Source: Marinobacter sp. BW6
Lineage (GTDB): Bacteria > Pseudomonadota > Gammaproteobacteria > Pseudomonadales > Oleiphilaceae
Direction: 5' to 3'
Assembly: GCF_008107725.1 (NCBI RefSeq)
Contig: NZ_VIRN01000064.1
Span: 1,116,001-1,180,000, forward strand
Length of the DNA: 64,000 bases
The number at the start of each line of letters is the position of its first letter. Positions within the stretch are counted from its first letter, which is position 1. The notes below the pieces were generated by a model. That model made no database searches, was not told where the DNA came from, and worked only from the letters and a program-made list of their open reading frames with translations. Below are positions 4,936-12,462 of this stretch, in pieces. The position numbers were made by a program, and so were the translations under genes.

Positions 4936-5041
4936 GTATCGGAGTTACCAAATTTTACGTCCGACGGGTAGGAAGTTTCCTTACGATTAGGCTAGTGTGT
5001 AGTTATAAGAAACGGACTTACGCCGCTGTTAAGGATAACGG

Positions 5042-5842
5042 ATGGACCACACCCAGATATTGCACGCCCTCCAGAACAACATTTCGACCGAGATTTGGTA
5101 TCTGATTCCCCTATTTCTGCTGGTGGCGGCGGTCATCAAATCTCCCTGGTTTAAAGGCAGAGCCGGGGAAGCTGTGGTTAACCTTTCAGCCAGACTGTTT
5201 CTCGATAAAGCCCGTTACCACCTGATCAAGAACGTCACCCTGCCCACCGAAGACGGCACTACCCAGATCGACCACATCATCGTTTCCCGGTACGGGGTTT
5301 TTGTGGTGGAAACCAAGAACATGAAGGGCTGGATCTTCGGTAACGCCAAACAGCGGTATTGGACCCAGAAGATCTTCAAGTACTCGCAGAAATTTCAGAA
5401 CCCGCTGCATCAAAACTACAAACACGTTAAGACTCTGCAAAATCTGTTGGGCCTGAGTGATGAGCAGGTTTTTTCGGTAGTGGTCTTTGTAGGGGATTCC
5501 ACATTCAAGACGCCCATGCCGGAGAACGTGACCCACGGTGGTGGGTATGTCCGCTATATCAAAGCCCAAACCGAGCAGCGGCTCTCGGATGTTGAGGTTC
5601 AGAAGGTGATCGAAGCCATTGAATCCGGGCGGCTGGCGGCTACGTTCAAAAATCACAGATATCACGTCAAGCATGTGAAGGAGGTCGTGGCGAAGAAAAA
5701 TAGTGAGCCACGATGCCCGAAGTGCCAGGGTGAGATGGTAAAGCGCACGGTGAAGCGTGGAGAAAATACTGGGAAGGAGTTTTTTGGCTGTAAGGCATTT
5801 CCCATGTGTCGGGGGATCATTGGTGCTTCGTTATTGCAATAA
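5042..5842 (+). CDS. NERD-domain protein with C-terminal topoisomerase-type zinc finger
   Basis: A 266-residue membrane-anchored protein. An N-terminal hydrophobic helix (about 17-33) is followed by a NERD domain (about 40-160), a PD-(D/E)XK nuclease relative. The visible core is QIDHIIVSRYGVFVVETKN, with the Asp and the E-T-K expected of the fold. The C-terminus holds CPKCQGEM..C..C, like the zinc fingers of DNA topoisomerase I. NERD proteins are thought to process nucleic acid, but the substrate is unknown. The start has AAGGAT five bases upstream. It heads the accessory block, and its stop codon lies in a 24 bp palindrome. Confidence 0.85.
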   Translation: MDHTQILHALQNNISTEIWYLIPLFLLVAAVIKSPWFKGRAGEAVVNLSARLFLDKARYHLIKNVTLPTEDGTTQIDHIIVSRYGVFVVETKNMKGWIFGNAKQRYWTQKIFKYSQKFQNPLHQNYKHVKTLQNLLGLSDEQVFSVVVFVGDSTFKTPMPENVTHGGGYVRYIKAQTEQRLSDVEVQKVIEAIESGRLAATFKNHRYHVKHVKEVVAKKNSEPRCPKCQGEMVKRTVKRGENTGKEFFGCKAFPMCRGIIGASLLQ

Positions 5843-5848
5843 CGAAGC
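5825..5848. repeat. Perfect 24 bp palindrome across the NERD stop codon
   Basis: The arms GCTTCGTTATTG and CAATAACGAAGC are exact reverse complements with no spacer. The TAA stop (5840-5842) lies in the right arm. The 16 bases 5833-5848 recur exactly at 5962-5977 before the next gene. There is no T-run, so it is not an ordinary terminator. It could be a recombination or protein-binding site. Confidence 0.85.
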
Positions 5849-6000
5849 TGTCAAATGATTACAGCGCGACCAGAGTGTTAGCGCAGCGTAGCGCTTTGAT
5901 TTAAATAGTTTAATTGGAAAAAACTGAGTTTTGGTTCTGAGTTTTTATTGACGCTCATCTGATTGCAATAACGAAGCACGCTATCTAATCACTGTTAAGT
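5837..6000 (+). other. Candidate long attC-like site before the HEPN-like cassette
   Basis: The right core GTTAAGT (5994-6000) matches GTTRRRY exactly and ends 4 bp before the next start codon. Bases 5854-5867 (AATGATTACAGCGC) are imperfectly complementary to 5979-5993. The left core is poor. The 160 bp length suggests a large apical loop or an insertion into a shorter site. Confidence 0.45.
5962..5977 (+). repeat. 16 bp direct copy of the right part of the palindrome
   Basis: ATTGCAATAACGAAGC repeats bases 5833-5848 exactly, 129 bp downstream. The two copies bracket a low-GC non-coding stretch, which suggests a duplication or a short insertion. Confidence 0.8.
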
Positions 6001-6004
6001 TTCT

Positions 6005-6598
6005 ATGAACCTATTAGGTCCCAAGAAAGATCTCGACATCGCGAATAAAGCGATCGATTGCATGAAATCCACCACAGATTTTTCTGAGTTTCAGGAAAGC
6101 TGGGAGAATTTTCTGTTCCGAATAGAGAGAGCCTGGGAGTTCACCGAACGAACGCTCAAATCGAAGAAGGGCTTCCAGCAATGGCATAAGCCATACACTG
6201 AGCTGCGGAAAAAGGACCCTTTGCTGGTGTTTTTACGGCAGGCACGAAATGCAGAGATGCATAGCGTTTCGCCCACAGTGACCAAGCCTCTTAAGATGGC
6301 AGTAATTGATAAAAGTGGACGTGGTTTTCAGCTCAATTCAATTTCATCACGGCTGGAAAATGGGACTTTGACGATAGATTTGGATTCACCCGACATATTG
6401 CTCGATCTGGATACCAGAATCGTGCCTACCGATCCTGAAGTTGTGCGTTTCAAGAATAGAGGAAAGTGGTACAACCCACCATGGCAGCATCTCCGGGAAA
6501 GAATCCGTGATCTCCACCCAGTGGCTTTGGCAGAACTTGGCCTCGTGTTCTATCGAGCCTATGTCAATGAAGCTGAGCTTTGGAGTCAGAAAACTTAA
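6005..6598 (+). CDS. Cassette-encoded protein with a HEPN-like RNxxxH motif
   Basis: A 197-residue soluble protein, largely helical in its first half. It contains RNAEMH at residues 81-86, which fits the R-N-x3-H active-site pattern of HEPN ribonucleases. Such proteins are common in toxin-antitoxin and anti-phage systems, but the motif alone does not prove activity. The gene begins 5 bp after an attC-type GTTAAGT core, and its stop codon lies inside the next attC site, so it is a typical cassette. I do not recognise the rest of the protein. Confidence 0.75.
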   Translation: MNLLGPKKDLDIANKAIDCMKSTTDFSEFQESWENFLFRIERAWEFTERTLKSKKGFQQWHKPYTELRKKDPLLVFLRQARNAEMHSVSPTVTKPLKMAVIDKSGRGFQLNSISSRLENGTLTIDLDSPDILLDLDTRIVPTDPEVVRFKNRGKWYNPPWQHLRERIRDLHPVALAELGLVFYRAYVNEAELWSQKT

Positions 6599-6664
6599 CA
6601 ATGTGGTCAACGGGACGCCAACTACGCTGCGCTCCGTTGCCGCCCATTACCACTGGCGTTAAAA
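6593..6664 (+). other. attC-like recombination site 1
   Basis: A 72 bp imperfect inverted repeat. The left core ACTTAAC (6593-6599) matches RYYYAAC exactly and overlaps the stop codon. The right core is GTTAAAA (6658-6664). Inside, AATGTGGTCAACGGG pairs with the reverse complement of CCATTACCACTGGCG, with extra unpaired bases as in real attC sites. The ACGCTGCGCT apical segment is common in such elements. Confidence 0.8.
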
Positions 6665-6675
6665 AGTAGAGAAAT

Positions 6676-7590
6676 ATGCTGTCATTAGCAGAAGAACTTT
6701 TACACACGACGGTTCGGCTCGAAGGAAAGAAAGCGAACGGCACCTCGGTTGGTACTGGCTTCTTCTTTTTTCGTGACGAACGGCTGTGGCTTGTAACCAA
6801 CAAGCACGTCGTTGAAGGAGTGCTCGCTGGACGCTTTTTTGTATTGAAAGGAATAGGTGGAGGTGAAGACAAGCAACCACTTTTAGGTGAGTTTCATGAA
6901 GTTAGCTTTTCTGCATCGAACTTTATAGGTCATCCCGATCCCACCGTTGATGTCACTGTCATGAATGTCTCAAAGATCATGTCAGAAAACGGAGGAATCG
7001 GAAGCACGGCGTTTTGGAAGCATATATCAGAAGATTTGTTCCCGACTGAGGAGCATCTTGATAAGTTCATTGGGCCGATGGAGGAAATTGTATTTATTGG
7101 CTACCCAAGCGGTCTTTGGGACACCAAAAATATGCTCCCAATCGCCAGAAAAGGAATGACTGCAACTGCTTGCTATGTGGACTTTGATGGCGAGAAAAAA
7201 TTCTTGATCGATGCCTCTGTTTTTCCCGGCTCAAGTGGGAGCCCAGTCTTCATTTACTACGCAGGATCGCATCCTGACAAGCGAGGCGGGTTCTACTCTG
7301 GTAACCGGATGCATTTTATCGGCCTAATCGCTAAGGTATTTCAGAGGCTCGAGGAGGGGGAAGTAAAGGCTGTTGATATTCCAACGGAGGAGAATCAGAT
7401 AGCGCAGGTGTATCAGATGATTGATCTTGGGATTACGTTTCGGCCCGAGACAATAATTGAGGCCATTGATTATTACCTAGCATGTGTTGGTAACTCGCCT
7501 ATCAGCACCCCTAAATCACCTTCTAGGAATTCTTTGTGTCAGTGTGGGAGCGGGAAAAAATACAAACACTGCCATGGATTGATCGAATAA
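6676..7590 (+). CDS. Trypsin-like serine protease with C-terminal SEC-C motif
   Basis: A 304-residue protein without a signal peptide, so probably cytoplasmic. The chymotrypsin-fold triad is visible: His44 in TNKHVVEG, Asp92 in PTVDVTV and Ser187 in GSSGSP. The last 20 residues contain a SEC-C zinc motif, CQCGSGKKYKHCHG. Cytoplasmic trypsin-like proteases with small accessory domains occur in defence islands, but the substrate here is unknown. The start lies 12 bp after attC site 1 and attC site 2 follows the stop, so the gene is one cassette. Confidence 0.85.
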   Translation: MLSLAEELLHTTVRLEGKKANGTSVGTGFFFFRDERLWLVTNKHVVEGVLAGRFFVLKGIGGGEDKQPLLGEFHEVSFSASNFIGHPDPTVDVTVMNVSKIMSENGGIGSTAFWKHISEDLFPTEEHLDKFIGPMEEIVFIGYPSGLWDTKNMLPIARKGMTATACYVDFDGEKKFLIDASVFPGSSGSPVFIYYAGSHPDKRGGFYSGNRMHFIGLIAKVFQRLEEGEVKAVDIPTEENQIAQVYQMIDLGITFRPETIIEAIDYYLACVGNSPISTPKSPSRNSLCQCGSGKKYKHCHGLIE

Positions 7591-7591
7591 T

Positions 7592-7661
7592 TTTTGACAA
7601 GTGGCTGTTGTCGGACGTACCTACGCTGCGCTTCTGTGCGCTGAAAAGCCAAGCGTTAGCG
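7592..7661 (+). other. attC-like recombination site 2 (degenerate)
   Basis: This 70 bp element follows the protease stop codon. The right end AAGCGTTAGCG keeps the GTTAG core. The left core TTTTGAC is degenerate. ACAAGTGGCTG pairs imperfectly with the reverse complement of the AAAAGCCAAGCG region. Length and position match sites 1 and 3. Confidence 0.6.
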
Positions 7662-7674
7662 CAATAAGGAAACT

Positions 7675-9237
7675 ATGAGAGACTTAGGGTTAATGGGAGA
7701 GAGCACCTTCAGCCTTTGGTGTGCTGATGTTGGTTTAATCCCGAACGGTTCACAAATTGATAAAACTGGGTGGGACTTTTTTGTCGAGTTCCCGTTTAGC
7801 TCCGAAATCTCAACTCATGAAATCCATAAGTCAGCATTTGAGTGCAAAGTTCAGGTTAAGGCAACCGATAAGAATCAAAGAAAACTACCCATAACGCTCT
7901 CAAATTTGAGGCGGTTGATTACCGCGCAAATGCCCGCATTTTTTGTCTTTATTGAATTCGACGGGAAGGAGGTTGCTCAAAGAGCGTTCGTTGTTCATGT
8001 TGATGATGATTTGATTTCCAAGGTCTTGAAAAGACTGCACCAGGTAGACCAGAGTGACAGTGATAATAATTTTAATAAACGTAAAATGACTATAAATTAT
8101 GATGAGAGCCACGCTATAGAGCCGTTGAATGGCGCAGGTTTGAAAGAACGTTTTTTATCTTATATTGGCGGTAGTGTTGAAGAATATATAGCTATAAAAA
8201 AATCTCACCTTGAATCTACTGGTTATGAGAATGGGTTTGCTCAAATGACTTTTACTACAGGTGGTGAGGAAAACTTAAAAGCATTAATTGACGTCTCTCT
8301 GGGAATTGAAAAGCAAGTTGAAATCTCGAAGTTTAAAGGTTTTGATACACGATTTGGCATAAAAAACAAAAGCCCATTTGTTGATTCTGAGGGTGGCAAA
8401 TTGGAGATGCCAAATGTGCAGCCAACAGCGGATGGCAAGATTAGATTTAAAGAGGATAAGTTGTCTTCAGGTTTATCGTTTGTTGCTAAGCTATATAACT
8501 CTCCATTTAACGCGATGGTTCCAGATTCTTTAAAAAAGATGAGAGTCGAGGGCGAATTTTTTGATCTTACCTTTAATCCGTATACAGGTTTTGCAAGCTA
8601 TTCTTTCTCTATTGGAGAAGGGGTCCGGCTAGAAGTTAAAAAATTTAGAGATGCTGTAAAATTACTAAATCATCTCAATTCATCTGGAACAAAATTATTT
8701 GCTGAGTTTTTATTCGAAAGCCTTCCTAAACTTGAGTTTAAGGTTGGCTGCTCCGAGCAGGGATTTGACTTTTCAGATGAGCTTCAGTCTCTAGAGTGTG
8801 CTGTTAGAATTTTGTCAGATTTTGAAGTCAATGATATCGTTGATATATCTTTGGAAGAGATATCTCGGCACGGCTCTAGCATATGCCAAATGCACAGCAT
8901 TTCTGGATCTGATCCTAGTCTTTTTAAAGTCGAGTTTGATGTTGAGGGAGATGGTTACGATCCATTGAAACCAACAGCATGTATATTTCTAGTAACAACA
9001 CCAATCGGGAGCCATGTTTTTGGTGTTATTTTGGTTTTGACTGGCAAGGTTGAAAGCATAGAAAATGGTAGGTTTCGGCTAATAAGTGACAATGTTGTTA
9101 TAGAGCAAAAAATTGTATCAGAGAGAGATTCGACTATATCAAATGAAGATTTGGTGTCGGCTGTAGAAAGAATAGAACTAAAGTACGAGTCAGATTTTTC
9201 AGTAGTCACTATGTTTGATAAAAGTGCTAACAAATGA
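7675..9237 (+). CDS. Large cassette protein with N-terminal DUF4365-like nuclease-fold domain
   Basis: A 520-residue protein. The N-terminus resembles DUF4365, a PD-(D/E)XK-fold domain: GES near residue 9, GWDFFVE with Asp34, then ECKVQVKAT around residues 56-64. The remaining 400 residues are low-GC and unfamiliar to me, with predicted beta-rich character. DUF4365 proteins often sit in defence loci, but an activity is inference. The gene is longer than most cassettes. It starts 13 bp after attC site 2, and its final codons lie within attC site 3. Confidence 0.8.
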   Translation: MRDLGLMGESTFSLWCADVGLIPNGSQIDKTGWDFFVEFPFSSEISTHEIHKSAFECKVQVKATDKNQRKLPITLSNLRRLITAQMPAFFVFIEFDGKEVAQRAFVVHVDDDLISKVLKRLHQVDQSDSDNNFNKRKMTINYDESHAIEPLNGAGLKERFLSYIGGSVEEYIAIKKSHLESTGYENGFAQMTFTTGGEENLKALIDVSLGIEKQVEISKFKGFDTRFGIKNKSPFVDSEGGKLEMPNVQPTADGKIRFKEDKLSSGLSFVAKLYNSPFNAMVPDSLKKMRVEGEFFDLTFNPYTGFASYSFSIGEGVRLEVKKFRDAVKLLNHLNSSGTKLFAEFLFESLPKLEFKVGCSEQGFDFSDELQSLECAVRILSDFEVNDIVDISLEEISRHGSSICQMHSISGSDPSLFKVEFDVEGDGYDPLKPTACIFLVTTPIGSHVFGVILVLTGKVESIENGRFRLISDNVVIEQKIVSERDSTISNEDLVSAVERIELKYESDFSVVTMFDKSANK

Positions 9238-9295
9238 ATCAAGCCGACCGTTTTCTGCTGCCGCTACAATAGGCGGCTTATTCAAGGCGTTAGGC
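9225..9295 (+). other. attC-like recombination site 3 (best conserved)
   Basis: A 71 bp site with left core TGCTAAC (9225-9231) and right core GTTAGGC (9289-9295, exact GTTRRRY). TGAATCAAGCCGACC pairs with the reverse complement of the GGCGGCTTATTCA segment, with a single extra base. The pattern TAACAA-N-CAAGCCG...CGGCTTA-N-GCGTTAG closely resembles well-known cassette attC sites such as that of aadA. It overlaps the preceding stop codon. Confidence 0.88.
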
Positions 9296-9315
9296 AATAG
9301 GAAGAGCATCATCGA

Positions 9316-9627
9316 ATGGAAATTTTGCTATCAATACTCGGCTCGTTAGCGTCCATTGGTGGTACAATCTGGGCGTATGTCCAAGCGCGGCGATCTAAAA
9401 CGTTTGCAGAACAGGCAAAGCCTGTCAGGGATGTGCTTGTAGAAAGAAGGAAGACTATTGAGGTTTCTAAAGTAAATTCAGAAACCGCTAGGATTTTTCG
9501 TCTCGTTTCCAAGGTTGGGCCAACATGTACTTCTACTTCCGTAAAAGCGAAAACCGGGACAGATATATTTTCCCGTCCAGGTTGTATTCGGAGTATTTGC
9601 AACGCGATAATAATAAGGTCCTTTTGA
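9316..9627 (+). CDS. Small membrane-anchored cassette protein, probably 3'-truncated
   Basis: A 103-residue reading frame beginning with a hydrophobic helix, MEILLSILGSLASIGGTIW, followed by a charged region. It starts 20 bp after attC site 3, as a cassette gene should. From about base 9549 the frame reads through the dispersed CCGGGACAG repeat and ends in low-quality sequence, and no attC follows. I infer that the original 3' end and its attC were lost when the repeat arrived. Confidence 0.55.
   Translation: MEILLSILGSLASIGGTIWAYVQARRSKTFAEQAKPVRDVLVERRKTIEVSKVNSETARIFRLVSKVGPTCTSTSVKAKTGTDIFSRPGCIRSICNAIIIRSF
9549..9573 (+). repeat. Dispersed CCGGGACAG repeat, copy 1
   Basis: GAAAACCGGGACAGATATATTTTCC-type copy lying inside the 3' end of the preceding frame, where an attC would be expected. 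Confidence 0.85.
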
Positions 9628-9645
9628 TACAGCGATAGGGTTGAG

Positions 9646-10782
9646 ATGAGATCCAAGTATTCAGGAAAAGAAGTAATAAAAGCCGGTGAAATATTTCTGC
9701 ATGAGGACGGAAATTACTCGGCTGATGAATTGAATAGAGCCATGGATGTTCTTTCATATTGGAGATTTGAACACGAATACGCCTTAGAGAAGGCTCTGGA
9801 GTTGTTGAGAAAGGAGACTTTAAAAAAAGATAAAAGTGCAATATTTGCAAAGAGATTGAAAAGGTACGCGTCGATTGTCTCAAAGCTCAAAAGATTTAGG
9901 AAAATGAAGCTGAAGAATATGCAAGACATCGGCGGTTGTCGGGCTATTGTTTCAAGTGAAAAAAAGCTTTATCAAGTAGTGAGAGAGCTTAGAAAGAAAG
10001 ATAATTTCAAAAACGGTCAAGGTATAATTAGATATAAAGACTATGTGAAGAACCCAAAAGATGATGGATATAGAGGTTATCATCTGATTGGGTCATTTAC
10101 AGACGGTTTCGGAGGCAAAAAATCAATCGAGATTCAGGTTAGAACTGTGATTCAGCATGATTGGGCTACCGCGCTTGAAATCGTAGACCTATTTACAGGT
10201 CAAGCTTTGAAGTCGAATCAGGGCAAAGCCGAATGGAAGAATTTTTTTCGACTGGTCAGTGATCATTTTTCTTTGATGGAAAGTGTTCACTTGTTTGTAT
10301 CCAAGAGTCAGCAGGATCAGTTTTACGAATATGAAAGGATAATAAATGAGAATAAAGATTATTTTCAGTCTGGAATTGAAATCCAAGAATATGAGTCGAA
10401 GTTAAAGGTCGTAAAAAGACTTCAGGCATATGCTCATTCTCTTAAAATAGCTGATGAGCATATATCCGAGCATAAGGTTGATGGTTATGTTTTGCTTAGG
10501 GTTGATACCGCAAGAAAAGAAGTGGAGTCTACGATATTTTCAAGCTCAAACAATGAAGAGGCGGAAAGAAAATATATAGAGTATGAGAAAGAATCAGCAA
10601 AAAAAACGAATTTAGTGGTTGCTTTGGTGTCAACTACAGCGGTCGGTGGGATAAAAGAGGCGTACCCAAACTACTTTGCAGACTCTACCGATTTTTTACA
10701 ATATCTAATCCACATACTTGATGCACCCTTTGCAAGGAAGACATCGTTTTTAGAGAAATGGCTCAAAGGTACCGGACTTTAG
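9646..10782 (+). CDS. RelA/SpoT-domain (alarmone synthetase-like) cassette protein
   Basis: A 378-residue protein with a central RelA/SpoT synthetase-type domain. Visible are NMQDIGGCRAI (residues 91-101), KDYVKNPKDDGYRGYHL (131-147) and EIQVRT (162-167), the hallmark blocks for ppGpp synthesis. There is no HD hydrolase, TGS or ACT domain. The N-terminal 80 residues are basic and the C-terminal 200 residues are unfamiliar. Such single-domain proteins include housekeeping small alarmone synthetases and toxic ones that pyrophosphorylate nucleotides or tRNA. Which applies here is unknown. An attC left core (GCCTAAC) follows the stop by one base. Confidence 0.85.
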   Translation: MRSKYSGKEVIKAGEIFLHEDGNYSADELNRAMDVLSYWRFEHEYALEKALELLRKETLKKDKSAIFAKRLKRYASIVSKLKRFRKMKLKNMQDIGGCRAIVSSEKKLYQVVRELRKKDNFKNGQGIIRYKDYVKNPKDDGYRGYHLIGSFTDGFGGKKSIEIQVRTVIQHDWATALEIVDLFTGQALKSNQGKAEWKNFFRLVSDHFSLMESVHLFVSKSQQDQFYEYERIINENKDYFQSGIEIQEYESKLKVVKRLQAYAHSLKIADEHISEHKVDGYVLLRVDTARKEVESTIFSSSNNEEAERKYIEYEKESAKKTNLVVALVSTTAVGGIKEAYPNYFADSTDFLQYLIHILDAPFARKTSFLEKWLKGTGL

Positions 10783-10898
10783 AGCCTAACCAGAAAGCCG
10801 GATAAAGCCGATACAGATCCAGTTTTTCGCTCTCTCTGATGGTGCAGCCCAGAAAAGACTCTGTGTTTCAACAGCAAGGATGGGTTGATGCCGCCGGA

Positions 10899-10922
10899 GA
10901 AACCGGGACAGATTTATTTTCC
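10899..10922 (+). repeat. Dispersed CCGGGACAG repeat, copy 2
   Basis: AGAAACCGGGACAGATTTAT followed by TTTCC. It lies downstream of the RelA/SpoT cassette, where the right half of the attC is missing. Confidence 0.9.
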
Positions 10923-11074
10923 GGGGTATTTTTCCAGCTTCTTCAGTGTCTGAAAGCCAACTCGAGTCACTACCAACAGCCTCTCTGGTTCGGTTAACAT
11001 CGGCTTCCACTGCATAGAACGGATTCTGTGCTTCAAAAGTAAGGAGAAGCTGATGCCAAGACAGGCCAGGGTGA

Positions 11075-11092
11075 ATGTGCCCGGTTTTCCGC
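11075..11092 (-). repeat. Dispersed CCGGGACAG repeat, copy 3 (inverted, partial)
   Basis: On the minus strand this reads GGAAAACCGGGCACAT, a partial copy. It lies 9 bp beyond an attC-like left core that follows the inverted gene at 11123-11647. Confidence 0.5.
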
Positions 11093-11122
11093 GCCACATT
11101 GTTCAGCCTAGGTAGGTGTAGG

Positions 11123-11647
11123 TCATTTGGGGCCTGAAAATCTTTCTCTGACCTTTCTATAAAGATAACCAACCGGAACCCAGCGGTTCCAATCTTTTCC
11201 TTTTCGAATGCCTAGCTCCTCTGAACCAATCTGTTTAACCTCTTCCAGACAACGATCAACTGCTATTTGGGTTTCGTCCAAGTGTTGGTACCAATCTTGG
11301 GCATCTCTGGCCTCGGACAGCCCATTTAACATTCTTTGGATTGCATCGAAAACATCGGCGGAGATTATGAAGTCAGCACTGTCAGCGATCTTCCAAACGC
11401 GTCTTTCTGCTTGATGGTAGTTTTCCCAAAGCTCTTTTTCCCTCTCAGGAGCAACCTCTCGTCCATCGACACCCGCTCCAAAATACTCGGAAGGTGGTAA
11501 ACCCATATCGTGCAAAGCTTCTATGAGCTCGATGTAGGCGTTAGCCTTTTTTTCCCACCACCTTTCTATCCTAAACCTCTGGAGGGTAAACCACGCACCA
11601 AAAAAGGCTGCCAATAGGGTCAAGATTATTTGTAAAAATAGAGACAT
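11123..11647 (-). CDS. Membrane-anchored hypothetical protein (inverted cassette-like gene)
   Basis: A 174-residue protein with one N-terminal transmembrane helix (about residues 3-20) followed by a helical cytoplasmic domain rich in Glu, Arg and Trp. I choose MSLFLQ at 11647, preceded by GGAAG, over an upstream Met that adds 11 polar residues. On the minus strand, 16 bp past the stop, a GCTGAAC-AATGTGG segment resembles attC site 1. It may therefore be a cassette lying in the opposite orientation. No family recognised. Confidence 0.7.
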   Translation of the reverse strand: MSLFLQIILTLLAAFFGAWFTLQRFRIERWWEKKANAYIELIEALHDMGLPPSEYFGAGVDGREVAPEREKELWENYHQAERRVWKIADSADFIISADVFDAIQRMLNGLSEARDAQDWYQHLDETQIAVDRCLEEVKQIGSEELGIRKGKDWNRWVPVGYLYRKVRERFSGPK

Positions 11648-11759
11648 ATTCTGGCTTCCAAAATTCTGAGCTACCGGCAATCAAGAATGAAATGAACGTA
11701 GACTTCATGTTAGCAAAGCTTCAAGAATTATTTTTTCTAAGTCGTTCTGGTCGACACCA

Positions 11760-11785
11760 TGAAAACCGGGACAGATCTATTATTG
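11760..11785 (+). repeat. Dispersed CCGGGACAG repeat, copy 4
   Basis: TGAAAACCGGGACAGATCTA followed by TTATTG. It marks the right boundary of the AT-rich accessory block and abuts the 3' end of the tautomerase gene, whose last codons lie just beyond it. Confidence 0.85.
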
Positions 11786-11788
11786 CGG

Positions 11789-12220
11789 TTATTTGGGCAA
11801 GCAGGCCCGCTTCCCCGGAGAAATTCCCTTTTCCCACTCAGCCTCATTGCCCGGCGCTGGCAAAAACCGCCCAAACTCGATCATCTGGTTGGCCGGAATG
11901 TCCTGCAGATAGAACCAGACATCTTCAGCTGAGATGTTCACGATTTGGGCGATTTCTTCAAGCATCTGGTTCATCAGGGCCTGTTTGATCTCGATGCTTC
12001 TGCCCTCACGCACCAAGCCGTGCACATACACCTGAGGCGCGGTGTTCGCTCTGCCACCCACAAAGTGGTCGCCCTGATTGGCCGCAGAAAAAAGAACCTG
12101 GGCAAAGAACCGGGGAGCGCCGGTTTGGGCATTGTGGGCCGCTGTGATGGCTTCGGCGATCTGTGATTTCTGCTGCGGCGACAGAGACAGATTCGCGACC
12201 GTGACGGTGTAAGTGGGCAT
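11789..12220 (-). CDS. Tautomerase-family protein (oxalocrotonate tautomerase-like)
   Basis: A 143-residue tautomerase-superfamily protein related to the long, cis-CaaD-type subgroup. The start at 12220 gives MPTYTV, so Pro1, the catalytic base, is exposed after Met removal, and GGAGCTTCC precedes it. The gene therefore does not start at the upstream Met at 12253. The substrate cannot be told from sequence. The final residues lie next to a dispersed repeat, so the C-terminus may have been altered. It diverges from the hydrolase gene at 12463. Confidence 0.8.
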   Translation of the reverse strand: MPTYTVTVANLSLSPQQKSQIAEAITAAHNAQTGAPRFFAQVLFSAANQGDHFVGGRANTAPQVYVHGLVREGRSIEIKQALMNQMLEEIAQIVNISAEDVWFYLQDIPANQMIEFGRFLPAPGNEAEWEKGISPGKRACLPK

Positions 12221-12462
12221 AGGAAGCTCCTGCCATGTGTTGTACGTTTGCACTGGATCTCGCCACTACGGGAGTGGGGCGGGCTTGTTTCACTATAGCA
12301 ACGCTTATCTGCCTGGCCCCGGCGTTTTACGCTGCCGATCACGGTAGGGCGGTTGCAGGTGAGTGAAGAGGGTGTGGTAGGTGAGATTATTGAACTTGCG
12401 GTTTGATATTGAAGCAATGAGCTATCCTGAGACTCTCGACCTTCAAGCATGCGAGCCAAACA

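Follow-up and report, generated by a model that had tools for sequence, protein, structure and literature searches.

A cassette array headed by a putative orphan attI site in Marinobacter sp. BW6, and related sites across the genus

We report that a 64,000-nucleotide stretch of the Marinobacter sp. BW6 genome (assembly GCF_008107725.1, contig NZ_VIRN01000064.1, positions 1,116,001 to 1,180,000; hereafter the window) carries a genuine integron cassette array, consisting of three whole cassettes and a fourth whose attC site is cut short. The array is headed by a predicted attI site that lacks its integrase gene (intI) and is here called an orphan attI. Related sites occur across the genus, and their sequences provide some insight into how such arrays might be filled. 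The window lies on a contig of 1.78 Mb (C12) in a genome of 4.2 Mb (G000).

The attC sites were identified with a covariance model (R1) trained on 30 of the 31 strict attC sites of an integron on another contig of the same genome (C67), with no window sequence in the training set. The window was scanned with filters off and matches were reported up to an E-value of 10; R1 coordinates in the window run one base late (the training rows taken from L015 were cut one base off). For attI we used a sequence-only model (R2) built from 17 orphan copies, the window copy among them, with no intI-linked attI in training. The integrase and attI types A, B and C are labels of this analysis and are distinct from the clinical classes. 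Positions are those of the window, and CDS stands for coding sequence and ORF for open reading frame. The features of the locus are as follows.

5042-5842, plus strand: left-flank gene for a NERD-domain protein with a C-terminal zinc ribbon (Pfam NERD, 4.1e-34)
5825-5994, plus strand: predicted orphan attI of type B, crossover G5994^T5995 (R2, 116.3 bits over 5825-5997)
5995-6658, plus strand: cassette 1, CDS 6005-6598 (197 aa), R'' box against cassette start 7/7
6593-6664, plus strand: attC of cassette 1 (R1, 56.0 bits)
6659-7655, plus strand: cassette 2, CDS 6676-7590
7592-7661, plus strand: attC of cassette 2 (R1, 36.7 bits)
7656-9289, plus strand: cassette 3, CDS 7675-9237 (520 aa)
9225-9295, plus strand: attC of cassette 3 (R1, 47.7 bits)
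9290-10800, right boundary uncertain, plus strand: cassette 4, right end lost, ORF 9316-9627 and CDS 9646-10782
11053-11106, plus strand: presumed N-terminal fragment of a transposase-like gene
11789-12253, minus strand: right-flank gene of the tautomerase family (Pfam Tautomerase_3, 3.5e-14)

The original prediction for this DNA, which was made from the letters alone, had placed three attC sites here and all three were borne out by R1, with plus-strand matches at 6594-6665 (E 1.4e-11), 7593-7662 (E 1.1e-6) and 9226-9296 (E 1.8e-9). Beyond these, R1 gave only two further matches in the window up to E 10, of 10.4 and 10.0 bits, the former being at chance level. A whole-genome pass with R1, in which 150 of 1511 candidates were scored, lists two of the three sites, the 36.7-bit site of cassette 2 being absent from that list; this site has one mismatch in its R'' box and a right spacer one base shorter than its relative in the C67 integron, where the stretch C67:104335-104406 resembles it closely by eye. 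Copies of about 66 bases of the cassette 1 attC are present at 90% identity or more in many of the genomes listed. When the sites are folded as single strands, only the first has a bottom strand that folds clearly better than shuffles (z -2.99), with no clear excess for the other two (z -0.27 for the second and -1.17 for the third). The crossovers fall at G5994, G6658, G7655 and G9289, and the R'' box is the reverse complement of the cassette start at all seven bases in cassettes 1 and 4 and at six of seven in cassettes 2 and 3 (an exact-match junction test catches cassettes 1 and 4 only, the other two being read from the letters). The region is therefore a real cassette array, given the R1 matches together with the agreement between R'' boxes and cassette starts.

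Two half-site remnants had also been proposed at the right end. At 10784 the motif GCCTAAC fits the R'' box of cassette 4, which starts with GTTAGGC, yet R1 finds no site there, and the attC of this cassette thus looks truncated, with its R'' box at 10784-10790. The inverted half-site at 11101 was rejected; it overlaps, on the opposite strand, the short reading frame MPRQARVNVPGFPRHIVQ (approximately 11053-11106, plus strand) and is its reverse complement. We take this frame to be the start of a REP-associated (RAYT) transposase. To its right lies a 185-aa reading frame (11123-11680, minus strand) with an N-terminus that is hydrophobic by eye and no family match at the usual cut-offs.

The left edge, the most interesting part of the locus, was overlooked in the original prediction, where a stretch at approximately 5837-6000 was taken for a long attC variant. 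That assignment did not hold, since there is no R1 match and the segment 5837-5980 folds no better than shuffled sequence on either strand; instead the stretch 5825-5994 is attI-like. Among 40 intI regions taken from relatives there are at least three kinds of attI. R2 recovers the attI at all 27 type-B intI loci given to it, none of which was in training, with E-values between 2.7e-14 and 1e-5, and every one of these matches ends at the crossover (model position 172-173). It gives no match in 11 sources without type-B intI, including those of types A and C (the test omits five intI regions that a contig end or an insertion sequence, IS, had truncated). As R2 finds the attI of type B and not those of other types, the window element is assigned, by homology, to the attI of type B, which is one lineage of Marinobacter integrons, and lacks its intI; the first-cassette junction at its crossover agrees at 7/7 bases.

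The element encodes the last codons of the NERD gene (ASLLQ, stop), while four element-free NERD homologues (L057, L058, L062 and L066) end in CRGxLxxxxE instead. It contains a 24-bp palindrome at 5825-5848, the right part of which is repeated at 5962-5977. A terminator-like hairpin, AGCGCAGCGTAGCGCT followed by a T-rich tail, is located at 5880-5895 on the plus strand, and a sigma-70 scan of 5000-12000 gave 14 promoter-like sites against 10.4 expected, with none listed within 5825-5994.

The claim that the array is an integrase-less CALIN (cluster of attC sites lacking an integron integrase) is strictly right at the locus, where there are three attC sites, two being sufficient, and no intI nearby, so that the intI adjoining attI that marks a complete integron is absent. 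The genome as a whole is not without an integrase: the proposed search for intI elsewhere found a complete gene on C67 that scores 421.8 bits with TIGR02249, where the cut-off is 265, and is accompanied by a large array of at least 31 strict attC sites at 103.7-120.7 kb (a 32nd strict match at 28.9 kb was treated as chance). This is the sole match above the TIGR02249 cut-off in the genome, and none lies beside the window array. A candidate relic of a type-B intI at C12:441777 was rejected because its score of 52.9 bits falls short of the cut-off and R2 detects no attI at that position. Near this weak tyrosine-recombinase fragment is a lone attC (C12:442603-442686, L017; 48.3 bits), likewise with no type-B attI.

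Across the genus, R2 matches were found in 86 of 124 genomes at E ≤1e-3, with up to seven per genome (the seven of G113 include one palindrome read on the other strand). Matches were listed down to about 28 bits and counted only from 30.2 bits, which leaves out two of exactly 30 bits. This gave 127 copies, of which 20 have an intI no more than 1.5 kb away. The other 107, from 66 genomes, do not, and only one of them has an intI match within 20 kb, a partial one. At the level of the order (E ≤1e-5), 19 genomes out of 390 gave matches, representing 6 genera out of 142. These were strong in Marinobacter and two other genera of its family, the latter with four matches each, and weak in the remaining three. 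Named genomes contain 12 stretches that match the right end of the orphan attI exactly; seven Marinobacter strains account for 11 of these and a Halomonas record for the other. In a record titled Halomonas sp. M20 (L318) a type-B attI of 49.0 bits is followed by five attC on the same strand, and this may represent a transfer or a misnamed record.

It could be argued that an intI does adjoin such sites and is merely hidden on another contig or behind an IS. Many of the genomes are drafts, and two apparent orphans, L246 and L311, look like integrons of this kind because an IS-like end at the LexA box splits intI from attI. For the window, on its large contig and with the NERD gene directly upstream, we consider such an artefact scarcely credible; many other orphan copies also lie inside large contigs and 98 of the 101 analysed below have more than 210 bp of left flank. 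The break is seen at L172, L173 and L195 (in G020 and G112), where an IS-like end lies in the LexA box between a type-B intI and attI, so that the attI contigs L246 and L311 resemble orphans.

Of the 107 orphan copies, 100 were analysed, namely 20 obtained earlier and 80 of the remaining 87; together with L101 (G065), identified solely through DNA similarity, they make up a set of 101. Downstream attC sites are present at 82 of the 101 copies and at 75 of the 87 with at least 4.5 kb of sequence. As to orientation, 243 attC lie downstream on the same strand, none downstream on the opposite strand and six upstream, three of which (L095) sit behind the next orphan attI (L235); two attC cut by the locus end were left out of these counts and one was counted twice (L277 and L283 overlap). 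Moreover, the bases after the crossover match the R'' box of the first attC at 7/7 positions in 57 of the 82 copies and at six or more in 71, compared with 16.9 expected from shuffled pairs. If two IS-split sites and a third that is short of upstream sequence are excluded, the test is passed by 70 of 80 copies and, among those of the 80 that lie outside the R2 training set, by 57 of 65. Where attC follow, the pass rate is 39/45 in genomes without type-B intI and 21/24 in those with an intact one.

The gene order is not uniformly shared among close relatives, and the proposed comparison thus did not refute a cassette-like locus. Specifically, in G084, G005 and G049 the similarity to the window takes in the NERD gene and attI and ends within a few bases of the crossover (88-91% identity over most of a 959-base query; 85-91% over attI), beyond which they carry sequence that differs from that of the window. 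The first-cassette junction is 7/7 in G084 and G005 and fails in G049 (5/7), and G084 has no intI match at E ≤1e-30. The further orphan-type copies that were first examined are likewise followed by other sequence, mostly with attC. Cassette 1 itself recurs in G046 at 92% identity within the cassette bounds, compared with 58% on one side and 53% on the other over the 160 bp outside them, and adjoins there a weak attI-like stretch of 14.4 bits.

Taken together, we consider the locus to be a CALIN of four cassettes with an orphan attI as its anchor, filled by an integrase from elsewhere in the genome, and assign this reading a probability of roughly 0.7. Circular cassettes would enter through attI x attC recombination at G5994^T5995, carried out in trans by an integron integrase encoded elsewhere, and the first cassette would be the most recent to arrive. 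On this view the array has decayed towards its right end, where the last attC is truncated beside repeats and the transposase-like fragment. Related orphan attI sites at recurrent chromosomal places across the genus hold different cassettes. The attI ends before the crossover are alike across types A, B and C (TAATTAGCTG^TTA, TAATTGCTG^TTA and TAATAAGCTG^TTA, respectively), and this similarity might let integrases use each other's sites.

An insertion at a chance secondary (attG) site, with the sequence to the left being incidental, would also produce a CALIN. Off-target insertion has been proposed in the parts of the literature available to us (PMC8618304, PMC12444791), and attI-like secondary sites are stated, in the portion seen of one source, to be frequent in genomes (PMC10127599). 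The left side of the window array is, however, a 170-bp homologue of type-B attI that is found at many places together with cassettes, which makes this origin highly improbable.

Several observations weigh against filling in trans or against the sites having been free of intI when filled. The genome carries a type-A integrase and no type B; the type-B query integrase is 50% identical to the type-A enzyme of this genome, and full-length type B (74-100% identity to the query) is present in 28 genomes. No attC follows 19 of the analysed copies, and for 12 of these at least 4.5 kb of sequence was available. Such copies are more common in genomes with an intact type-B intI (11/35) than in those without (8/53), the opposite of what simple loading by type B in trans predicts. 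Finally, intI remnants are kept at 6 of the 101 orphans and half a LexA box was scored, by a loose rule, at 30; within three mismatches it occurs at 35/101 copies compared with 5/101 in shuffled sequence.

The last of these features favour the main rival, according to which each site was once a complete type-B integron whose intI was deleted, leaving attI and array as a frozen relic. The copies with half a LexA box mix with the intI-linked sites on the tree (11 changes for this L group, 10 for the linked group), which points to repeated loss of intI in place, a type-B intI is missing from 38 of the 65 genomes whose orphans were analysed, and the window's own intI may simply have been lost later. 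On the other hand, close relatives differ in their first sequence and the left ends of many copies are shared. By left flank, 98 copies sort into 39 groups, so that there are at most 39 distinct places. The largest groups are the urease locus (26 copies, including that of the window), the pgk-fba locus (11) and two more of 9 and 8 copies, and on the tree the copies cluster by place (13 changes compared with 38 when shuffled). The 34 copies with a palindromic left end, that of the window included, form one side of a branch that separates them from the L and linked rows (support 83/99, recovered in 96% of bootstrap trees; the P and L left-end classes follow a loose motif rule and 37 of 101 copies belong to neither). 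The clade as a whole has 44 rows, 34 palindromic and 10 unclassified, with none of the tree's 20 intI-linked rows, and covers six flank groups (25, 11, 4, 1, 1 and 1 rows, three of them thus being single-row) and one row without a flank group. Since independent deletions are unlikely to share one left end, this weighs against degradation as the general explanation, which we nevertheless regard as a serious possibility, somewhat short of even odds.

The palindromic clade provides evidence that an attI already free of intI has spread to several places; its strength is moderate, given a short alignment of 153 retained columns, many unresolved forks and a bootstrap that had not converged. Both such spread and loss of intI in place may have occurred. 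At the fba locus a search for an empty site gave no clean target; outside element carriers most of the matches listed stop near the gene end. We also entertain, tentatively and at somewhat less than even odds, that the orphan attI constitute a dispersed docking system, multiplied to fixed places in Marinobacter and its family and loaded in trans. If so, a cell would have several cassette entry points and CALINs would form at predetermined positions.

As for the cargo, which the original prediction considered to be of the type found in defence islands, the predictions are consistent with this in part. The cassette 1 protein, proposed to be HEPN-like, has no family match, and single-sequence structure models gave a mean predicted local distance difference test (pLDDT) score of 46 for it and 36 for the cassette 3 protein, whose DUF4365-like match is under the Pfam cut-off (15.9 compared with 24.3 bits). 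Cassette 2 encodes a trypsin-like protease with a SEC-C motif that matches PDC-S45 (1.2e-83), and the CDS at 9646-10782 in cassette 4 encodes a RelA/SpoT-domain protein that matches PDC-S33 (5e-102). These are both candidate families of PADLOC, so that two of the five array genes have such matches.

G003 carries a 75% homologue of the RelA/SpoT gene. The repeat ACCGGGACAGATNTATT flanks the window gene on both sides and also adjoins this homologue (L328); in the window there are exact copies at 9553, 10902, 11765 and 40674, and allowing two mismatches there are eight matches against 0.05 expected.

Elsewhere, in a random sample of 20 first genes drawn from 70 junction-passing loci, four match PADLOC at 1e-10 (the gene taken was the first ORF of at least 90 aa kept by the script, and may not be the first gene). 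As a control, the rest of the window gave eight family matches over 59 ORFs, which were uncurated longest-ORF picks. The first ORFs of 98 loci (97 orphan loci, including those without a found attC, and the window) gave matches that include ThsB-, LmuA-, AbiO-, Drt8- and CBASS-cyclase-like families among the 25 of 163 families listed. Defence-like genes thus form part of the cargo at orphan sites, and not necessarily most of it.

With respect to known systems, Darracq et al. are said to have described in 2025 sedentary integrons as stores of anti-phage genes; the defence-like cassettes are alike, and here they belong to a small array without intI.

A large survey reports approximately equal numbers of CALINs (2961) and complete integrons (2760) and, in the parts available to us, states that attI detection by IntegronFinder is confined to class 1 integrons (PMC9024848). 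This suggests that surveys probably overlook sites such as those described here. The origins proposed in print for CALINs, as given in the sections seen, are off-target insertion, loss of intI and rearrangement (PMC8618304), and a CALIN and an In0 element are reported for Marinobacter sp. LQ44 in the part seen of another source (PMC10295459). A single CALIN with its own attI, conserved CALIN positions and a Marinobacter CALIN are already known. In the open-access literature searched, part of it seen in excerpt, we found no report of a family of orphan attI sites and one single case, in a Shewanella prophage (PMC9892861). As far as these searches reach, what is new is that orphan attI sites form a genus-wide family whose cassette junctions are evidence of their use, and recurrent attI sites free of intI at the head of arrays would offer a testable reason for CALINs at conserved positions.

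Like any CALIN, the window array consists of attC sites with no intI beside it; it differs in having an identifiable attI at its head that belongs to a family recurring at fixed places. The CALIN of the Shewanella prophage M16-3 is likewise headed by attI, with a complete integron elsewhere, and appears from the text available to be a single prophage case, whereas in Marinobacter there are many copies at recurrent chromosomal places within one genus (PMC9892861). Seven Xanthomonas CALIN loci away from intI also occupy conserved chromosomal positions; the portions of that report seen mention no attI, while the Marinobacter sites are marked by one (PMC12444791). Finally, the delta-attI gene cassettes of mobile integrons, according to the part of the source available, also carry an attI away from intI that is usable by IntI1; in those cassettes attI replaces attC, whereas here attI would be the entry site of the array (PMC12901181).

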